56,223 bases of DNA from a bacterium (GTDB taxonomy: Bacteria > Patescibacteriota > Minisyncoccia > UBA6257 > 2-01-FULL-56-20): NCBI GenBank assembly GCA_021827685.1, contig JAKAUM010000003.1:1-56223 (forward strand). Direction: 5' to 3'. Below are positions 54,319 to 56,223 of this stretch, in pieces (position 1 is the stretch's first letter; each line of letters begins with the position of its first letter). The notes under the pieces are model-generated. The model was given only the letters and a program-made list of their open reading frames with translations, did not search any database and was not told the DNA's origin. The position numbers were made by a program, and so were the translations under genes.

Positions 54319-55012
54319 GGCGGCCGTTTTTAGCGCCGCCTGGCTTTTCCTCCCGTTTTGGGCGTTTGTCATCGTCGCCCTCTACCTCTATTTCGTGCCA
54401 TGGTTCGGGCCAGGGCGGCTTTTCGTCCCGTTCGCCGCCCTGCTTATCCTTGCATATATCGAGCCGGCGGCGCCGGACGCCGCGGGATTCTGGTCCGCCA
54501 TCGTATTCGGGGCGGTGTTCTACTGCATCCTCCTCGTAAAAGACCTTTTAGTCCTGGACCGCCGCGCCTTTTACGAAGCAATCATTTTCGCGCTTGCCCT
54601 GTTCCTCCTCCGCGATTTCTACCGCGGCTTCGATACGGGTGTCGGCGGCCCGGATGGGGGATGGGGACTATTCATGGCATTTTTCGCGGCGGGCGCGATC
54701 GCGCTCCTTATTAAGAGCTTTTTTGCCTCATTGGGGGAAGAGGGCGCCGGCGCCTCGCCGCACCGCCGCATGATCCACTGGCTGTTTTTCCTCATCCTTG
54801 TCCAACTCTGCGTCGCGGGGCTTTTCCTCCCGCTCGATTTCACTTACCAGTCAATAGCCGTTTTTCTTATAGCGGCGCCCCTTATAGACCTTACGGCGGA
54901 ATATCTCGTATCCGGCGGCGGCGGCCCTTCCCGGAATAAAGTTGCGGGCACCGCAGGCGTCGTCGCGATATTGTTCGTCTTTATCCTTTCGTCCGCGCAT
55001 TGGGGCCTGTAA
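54263..55012 (+). CDS. Multi-TM membrane protein of unknown function
   Basis: Several hydrophobic helices (LFLPFWAFVIVALYLYFVPWF etc.); start uncertain, overlaps the clpB 3' end. Confidence 0.65.
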   Translation: MAEKLKSISRQIHWSSLLRAAVFSAAWLFLPFWAFVIVALYLYFVPWFGPGRLFVPFAALLILAYIEPAAPDAAGFWSAIVFGAVFYCILLVKDLLVLDRRAFYEAIIFALALFLLRDFYRGFDTGVGGPDGGWGLFMAFFAAGAIALLIKSFFASLGEEGAGASPHRRMIHWLFFLILVQLCVAGLFLPLDFTYQSIAVFLIAAPLIDLTAEYLVSGGGGPSRNKVAGTAGVVAILFVFILSSAHWGL

Positions 55013-55026
55013 GCTTGCCTTTTCCG

Positions 55027-55712
55027 GATTGCCGGATTATCCTTTTCCGCATGCGTGAAAACGGCAATCAATCCAGCAACGGGGTCCTCACGAAGGCCTA
55101 CGAAATAAGCTATGCCGCTTTCCGGATCGCTTCGCGGACGGGAAGCGTCGCGCTCCGCGAACATCTCGAGCGGCAGGCGCTTTCGCTTCTGGATGCCGCT
55201 ACGGTGGAAAACTATGGCTGGATCAATATCGTTTCCCGCGCGATCGGATATCTTATAAGGTTCGGCGGCGACGTCGGACTGGTCAATGAGGAGAATAAGG
55301 AGACCATCCTCCGCGAACTCGCCGAGCTGGATGCCCGCGTCGCTGGCACGGAAAAACCGGCCGTCATCGAGCCCGTTCCGCTTGATGATATTTTTTCCGG
55401 ACAGGAGCCGCTTTTTCGAAATGAATTGATAAGGAAGGCGAGACCGGCAATCCGGCAAACCGAACGGAAAGAGGATCGGGATTCGGAACAATTGCGCGAG
55501 CGAGAGAGAGAATCCGCCGACCCGTCCATAAGGCAAGAGACGATATTTAATATAATTCGGCAATCCGGCAATTGCCGCCTCCGCGATCTTACTGCCGCAT
55601 TGCCGGATTATAGCGAGCGTACTCTGCGCTATGACCTTGAGACGCTCTCGTTGCAGGGGCTGGTTGAAAGAATCGGCAACGGAGGCCCTGCCGTTTTCTA
55701 TAGAATCCGGCA
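55027..55712. repeat. Dispersed TGCCGGATT/AATCCGGCA motif cluster
   Basis: Exact 13-mer ATTGCCGGATTAT at 55027-55039 and 55599-55611; reverse-complement AATCCGGCAAT at 55562-55572; AATCCGGCAA at 55449-55458; AATCCGGCA at 55704-55712. Confidence 0.75.
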
Positions 55713-55791
55713 GACCGCGGCAAACAGTCCCGCCGATATTGCCGCGGAAGGTTCCATTTCGGAAGGAGCCGTTCCCCGGGGATCCGTATAA
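55051..55791 (+). CDS. DeoR-like HTH protein with helical N-terminal domain
   Basis: C-terminal IFNIIRQSGNCRLRDLTAALPDYSERTLRYDLETLSLQGLVERIGNGG winged-HTH; helical N-terminus. Confidence 0.78.
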   Translation: MRENGNQSSNGVLTKAYEISYAAFRIASRTGSVALREHLERQALSLLDAATVENYGWINIVSRAIGYLIRFGGDVGLVNEENKETILRELAELDARVAGTEKPAVIEPVPLDDIFSGQEPLFRNELIRKARPAIRQTERKEDRDSEQLRERERESADPSIRQETIFNIIRQSGNCRLRDLTAALPDYSERTLRYDLETLSLQGLVERIGNGGPAVFYRIRQTAANSPADIAAEGSISEGAVPRGSV

Positions 55792-55846
55792 GATTTCCAC
55801 AGGATTGCGGGCTTCTTACGGGGTAACCTTTTTTTTCGACTTGCGT

Positions 55847-55852
55847 TATAAT
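55847..55852 (+). promoter_or_regulatory. Promoter -10 box for the structured RNA
   Basis: Perfect TATAAT in ttgcgttataattaccgcat about 10 nt before the RNA; -35 not clear. Confidence 0.5.
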
Positions 55853-55858
55853 TACCGC

Positions 55859-55990
55859 ATAGGTTCTGGTGTGAGGCTGGAACCGCTGAAGAGCGTAAAG
55901 CCGGGAAAGCCGGCACAAAGCGCCTCCGGATGAGATCCGAGGGCGCGGAGATGATGAAATCCAGCCTCGCCCAAAGCGAGCGTTTTCTTT
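55859..55990 (+). ncRNA. Candidate structured small RNA, multi-hairpin junction with intrinsic terminator
   Basis: Closing stem GTGAGGCTGGA (55871-55881) with TCCAGCCTCGC (55960-55970), hairpins CGCT-GAAG-AGCG, GCCGG-GAAAG-CCGGC and GCGCCTCCGGAT-GAG-ATCCGAGGGCGC, then CTCGC-CCAAA-GCGAG plus T-rich tract. Confidence 0.6.
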
Positions 55991-56223
55991 TATAAAAGAT
56001 AAAGACCCCGCGGCTTCTTCATTCTTCCTGCCGCCGCCTCCTCACAGCGGCTGCGGACAAGGGTGGAGAGACAGCGGTCCCTAAAAAAGTATTGCAACCA
56101 AAAGGTCGACGGCCCACGGCTCCATAACGGATCCAAAGGTCGATACCTCAAATAAACATTGTCGAAAACATAACTCATATAAATGTCTAGCAAAAAATTG
56201 GTTTCTGTGGTTCTCACGGTTTC

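Follow-up and report, generated by a model that had tools for sequence, protein, structure and literature searches.

A conserved RNA of Paceibacteria, probably a transcription attenuator in the mRNA leader of a giant surface protein

The window analysed here is the whole 56,223-nt contig JAKAUM010000003.1 of a bacterium of the Patescibacteriota (assembly GCA_021827685.1), in which an earlier note, made from the sequence alone, had described a compact structured RNA at positions 55,859 to 55,990. We conclude, with a probability of roughly 0.7, that this RNA is the mRNA 5' leader of a giant surface protein and a cis-acting transcription attenuator that uses no leader peptide; it is probably an RNA switch that decides whether the surface-protein gene is read to its end, and it is possibly tuned by loop-loop pairing. 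The functional element reaches past the interval of the note, to the ATG start codon at 56183. The earlier interpretation was partly supported: the elements it had named (the TATAAT box, the closing stem, the terminator, and the GGTTC/GAACC pairing) were all found at the positions given, and its view of a compact noncoding RNA with mutually exclusive, attenuator-like folds held up, with the overlap of closing stem and terminator conserved in homologues.

Three helices, P1, P2 (the closing stem), and the terminator, overlap as segments 1:2, 2:3, and 3:4 (Table 1). P2 takes up the loop and 3' arm of P1, and the terminator takes up the 3' strand of P2. In the leader arm of P1, GGTTC (55862-55866) pairs with GAACC (55880-55884), and the P1 loop, GUGAGG (55871-55876), is invariant in every instance. 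The minimum-energy fold consisted of exactly the closing stem and the three hairpins that it encloses, at −63.6 kcal/mol compared with a mean of −44.7 kcal/mol for shuffled sequences (z = −4.7; 0 of 200 shuffles as good). In 49 of 57 comparisons the energy favoured the P2 state over P1 plus terminator (median 3.6 kcal/mol), the values for the window being −60.8 and −53.9 kcal/mol, respectively. As P1 is transcribed first, a kinetic choice between the two states is plausible.

Pairing was assessed in an alignment of 29 trimmed sequences. Changes on both sides were present at 6 of 7 pairs of P1; P1 and the terminator together gave 30 cells changed on both sides, which none of 500 shuffles equalled, and slid controls were 15-39% paired. 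For P2, 98.8% of the cells were paired, as against 35-44% in slid controls, and seven were double-changed, with compensatory changes from U-A to C-G or A-U and from G-C to A-U. The terminator stem and U-tract were retained in homologues, with a GC to AU double change in two. The leader pairing that the earlier note had seen as competing with the closing stem is therefore part of P1, the helix with the strongest covariation. Another helix, tested next to P1, was just 42% paired and was dropped.

Of 64 leaders, 24 had an exact −10 hexamer within the roughly 50 nt preceding P1, where 4.1 were expected; between the terminator and the start codon such hexamers were depleted, with 4 in 58 compared with 13.3 expected. 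These results indicated that the surface-protein gene lacks a recognisable promoter in this stretch and needs read-through. From the −10 box of the window, transcription is predicted to start at about 55859-55860, 2-3 nt ahead of P1; P1 follows the predicted start by so few nucleotides that a leader peptide would not fit, and no translated leader peptide with regulatory codons was found before the terminator. A terminator hairpin with its U-tract lies between promoter and gene and is kept across homologues, as is, with the exception of G198, an antiterminator that overlaps the terminator and competes with an upstream helix.

We propose that P1, at the extreme 5' end of the transcript, would fold before the other helices. 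As long as it held, P2 would be deprived of the 3' arm and of part of the loop of P1, the terminator would form, and a short transcript, about 130 nt long, would be released; if P2 formed instead, the terminator would be blocked and polymerase would continue into the gene. The GUGAGG loop of P1 would be the switch point.

Past the terminator, and outside the interval of the earlier note, stands a long hairpin of variable sequence, H2, whose loop holds CCUCAC, the exact complement of GUGAGG. Complementary loops of the kind used by plasmid pT181 are thus present in 50 of 64 leaders, CCTCAC after the terminator having a shuffle expectation of about 3%; in the first set the count was 22 of 31 leaders as against 1.1 on shuffles. 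Reverse complements of other hexamers from the same leaders were found in 1-10 of 64. CCUCAC was 83% unpaired, compared with a background of 45%, and 31 of 46 folds placed it in an apical loop. The complementarity suggests that the H2 loop is likely to be a functional competitor for GUGAGG, acting either within the same finished leader, in cis, or between mRNA copies, in trans, which would provide feedback. A doubtful extension of this proposal is autogenous feedback by RNA only, in which CCUCAC of the finished mRNA would kiss the nascent GUGAGG, stabilise P1, and trigger termination.

Because the inserts vary, a first DNA search of relatives with the whole element gave only three clear matches; these were partial and came from three genomes belonging to the same GTDB family. 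Their common plan was a 5' hairpin with the loop GUGAGG, a variable insert, and GCCUCGC running into the terminator. A covariance model searched over 244 genomes of the order found many more homologues; a hairpin and terminator filter left 64 distinct instances, 58 of them with a large open frame beginning within 700 nt. These belong to at least 10 families (f1, f6, f15, f16, f17, f21, f23, f24, f25, and f27) of one order of Paceibacteria, within the Patescibacteria or candidate phyla radiation (CPR). When 85,462 species genomes were scanned with a pattern blind to the protein, 10 of the 11 matches were the same locus with the same downstream gene, in Candidatus Liptonbacteria, Harrisonbacteria, Paceibacter, and other Paceibacterota; the remaining match came from a cyanobacterium and had no such surroundings. 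In 387 genomes of the class, the inspected matches of model R2 outside the order were bare terminators or unrelated stretches lacking the GUGAGG hairpin element, the sensitivity of this model being limited in that it aligned the copy in the window by its 3' part alone; most matches from a 3' pattern scan across the order were coding. The insert ranged from about 16 to 160 nt in relatives and differed in sequence as well. The three inner hairpins, real in the minimum-energy fold of the window, are therefore a lineage-specific insert of variable length and not the essential part of the architecture described in the earlier note.

Several leaders depart from this plan. Two complete P1-terminator units stand in tandem before the surface-protein gene in L076 (G070) and L068 (G068). 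In L110, L111, L185, and L064 an extra hairpin is inserted in the P1 loop just before GUGAGG, and the closing stem is retained. L169, L177, and L084, of family f17, are a divergent version of the leader with terminators shifted or altered and, in two, GTGAGGTCGA in the second domain. L124, on a contig filed under Armatimonadota, carries both the element and the giant gene and is probably a misbinned Paceibacteria contig.

Some observations weigh against the attenuator. The terminator of the window has a short stem of 5 bp (−5.6 kcal/mol); that of G198 (f17) is shifted and barely overlaps P2; and families f21 and f17 mostly lack CCTCAC. Pairing of P1 with H2 has no covariation support because GUGAGG never varies, and most instances were found by requiring GUGAGG. 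Finally, the alignment (A3) was gathered partly by requiring P1 pairing, so that the covariation of P1 is not fully independent of selection. As many aligned sequences had been chosen in this way, leaders were also gathered through the protein alone, from all 38 genomes of the family and with no P1 requirement. Among the 30 best loci, GTGAGG was present in 30, P1 by strict definition in 27, and CCTCAC in 28; in the three other leaders P1 was retained but contained a mismatch or internal loop. Across 19 intergenic regions, GTGAGG was enclosed by a stem of at least 6 bp in 84%, compared with 1.2% at other positions.

The least improbable of the other explanations is that the same attenuator is set by a factor bound to P1. 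This factor would be a metabolite or regulatory protein; possible proteins are the helix-turn-helix (HTH) protein encoded next door, a chaperone, and the exported protein itself. The explanation is a version of the attenuator and not exclusive of it. The attenuator layout and the invariant loop of 7-8 nt would suit a protein site, and the HTH gene is conserved next door; however, HTH_DeoR domains as a rule bind DNA. No ligand-binding core is conserved in domain 1, where the insert is free to vary and just P1 and the P2/terminator strand are conserved, a result that does not support a metabolite riboswitch.

A plain leader terminator, whose constant read-through would simply be fixed by P1 and P2, would accord with energies that alone already favour P2 and with the fact that no signal is known, but both the competing helices and H2 are conserved across ten families, which is more than a fixed leak needs, and we consider this unlikely. 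Lower still we rank a separate small RNA with its own promoter and terminator, whose GUGAGG loop would act in trans, one possible target being the CCUCAC loop in the downstream mRNA. Its own −10 box and U-tract terminator, the exposed invariant loop, the tandem copies in two genomes, and the perfect complement in the neighbouring leader all fit such an RNA. In contrast, the stretch from terminator to gene holds no promoter, so that transcription of the gene must pass through the RNA; it would be strange for a pure small RNA to have its loop pair with an arm of its own terminator; and the near-complete single-contig genome G023 has one P1-terminator element only, with its own H2 nearby. A retron, group II intron, or other RNA linked to a reverse transcriptase, suggested by the earlier note from the compact fold only, can be dismissed, as the gene beyond 56223 encodes a surface protein with a signal peptide, a peptidoglycan-binding domain (PG_binding_1), and beta-sandwich domains and no reverse transcriptase, and Rfam gave chance matches only.

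In Rfam 15, the window matched only tRNAs at the gathering score, the RNA region had just chance matches below gathering at E up to 10, and 20 homologous loci had none at E up to 1. The retron, tRNA-like, 6S, signal recognition particle (SRP), and T-box readings were dropped for want of Rfam support and because the partner gene is the wrong one.

The usual gene order is ClpB, a membrane protein of about 250 aa, an HTH_DeoR-type protein, the RNA, and the giant exported protein. The last is mostly 1,100-1,200 aa long (630-950 aa in a few), with PG_binding_1 near the N-terminus, and has a signal peptide, a coiled coil, and, in a low-confidence model, a chain of beta-sandwich-like domains. The AlphaFold model was weak, with a mean predicted local distance difference test score (pLDDT) of 57 and a predicted template-modelling score (pTM) of 0.31, and a fold search with it returned multidomain immunoglobulin-like and beta-rich proteins at low template-modelling scores; the name surface-layer (S-layer) protein is therefore tentative. 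The window stops 41 nt into this gene, whose C-terminal end is seen at the start of contig C13. Positions 56097-56223 are identical to positions 7527-7653 of contig C3 (G000, L002); both are contig ends, and 127 bp is a common assembler k-mer length. Contig C3 has a promoter and a short GGTTCTTAAGGACC where the RNA would stand, and the overlap likely reflects two occurrences of the leader of the giant gene, of which one lacks the attenuator. GGTCGA repeats between H2 and the start codon are conserved across the order and also occur in the C3 copy, where the RNA is missing.

Two motifs were found upstream of P1. Matches to the DnaA-box consensus TTWTNCACA, mostly 45-95 nt before P1, occurred in 24 of 63 leaders, with 0.34 expected, and nearly always in the same orientation; the window's copy at 55794-55802 (ATTTCCACA) is imperfect. 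DnaA control of the surface-protein promoter is possible from this placement. A CGTTAT motif about 90 nt before P1 was present in 37 of 63 upstream regions, compared with 2.6 expected (in the window, 55844-55852, CGTTATAAT), and might be an operator, perhaps for the neighbouring HTH protein.

Table 1. Positions of the leader RNA and adjoining features in the window
Feature	Position	Strand	Basis or remark
HTH_DeoR-type protein gene, conserved upstream neighbour	55000..55791	+	Pfam HTH_DeoR E = 1e-7; synteny
−10 box TATAAT	55847..55852	+	exact match
P1 hairpin (segments 1:2), GGTTCTGG-(TGTGAGG)-CTGGAACC, 7-8 bp	55862..55884	+	covariation
P2 antiterminator (segments 2:3), 11 bp, GTGAGGCTGGA 55871-55881 with TCCAGCCTCGC 55960-55970	span 55871..55970	+	
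Variable insert, three strong hairpins in the window copy	55885..55959	+	structured; sequence and length not conserved
Intrinsic terminator (segments 3:4), CTCGC-CCAAA-GCGAG 55966-55980, then CGTTTTCTTTT 55981-55991	55966..55991	+	found by scan
H2 hairpin, apical loop CTCCTCACA, CCTCAC at 56040-56045	56008..56077	+	fold
Two GGTCGA motifs ahead of the start codon	56101..56145	+	GGTCGA in 23 of 31 leaders vs 0.8 expected
Giant exported PG_binding_1 surface-protein gene, first codons MSSKKLVSVVLTV..., cut by contig end	56183..56223	+	resembles MNSKKLVSAVLTATT of the G005 orthologue

The logic of the attenuator is of a known kind. Like the trp and his leaders, it has three mutually exclusive helices, of which 1:2 preserves the terminator 3:4 and 2:3 blocks it; unlike them, it leaves no space for a leader peptide before P1, precedes a surface-protein gene, and includes an exposed invariant loop in segment 2. 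It resembles the antisense attenuator of pT181 repC, where a kissing interaction operates (PMC3753616), in having a hairpin loop whose capture by a complementary loop would favour the terminator; here, in contrast, the element is chromosomal, the complementary loop belongs to the same transcript, further downstream, and not to an antisense RNA, and kissing is predicted from the sequence. T-box and riboswitch leaders likewise end in an intrinsic terminator with an alternative antiterminator, but the present RNA has neither an Rfam match nor a conserved aptamer. As in the mRNAs of S-layer and other surface proteins, a long 5' leader precedes a gene resembling that of a major surface protein; a leader of such structure before genes of this type was not found in the literature searched. 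Nor did we find there a description of this RNA family, of a layout without leader peptide and with a complementary downstream loop, or of a tie to a Patescibacterial surface protein. To our knowledge no regulatory RNA has been described in Patescibacteria/CPR, and literature searches for one found none.

The RNA appears to be an unlisted family, near-universal in one lineage and tied to a giant surface protein, and it offers a concrete handle on control of the coat in ultra-small, uncultured cells that depend on a host. Its complementary loops make kissing control of the plasmid type directly testable in a chromosomal gene; if the autogenous circuit were true, a bacterium with few regulators would keep the mRNA of its coat protein at a set level.
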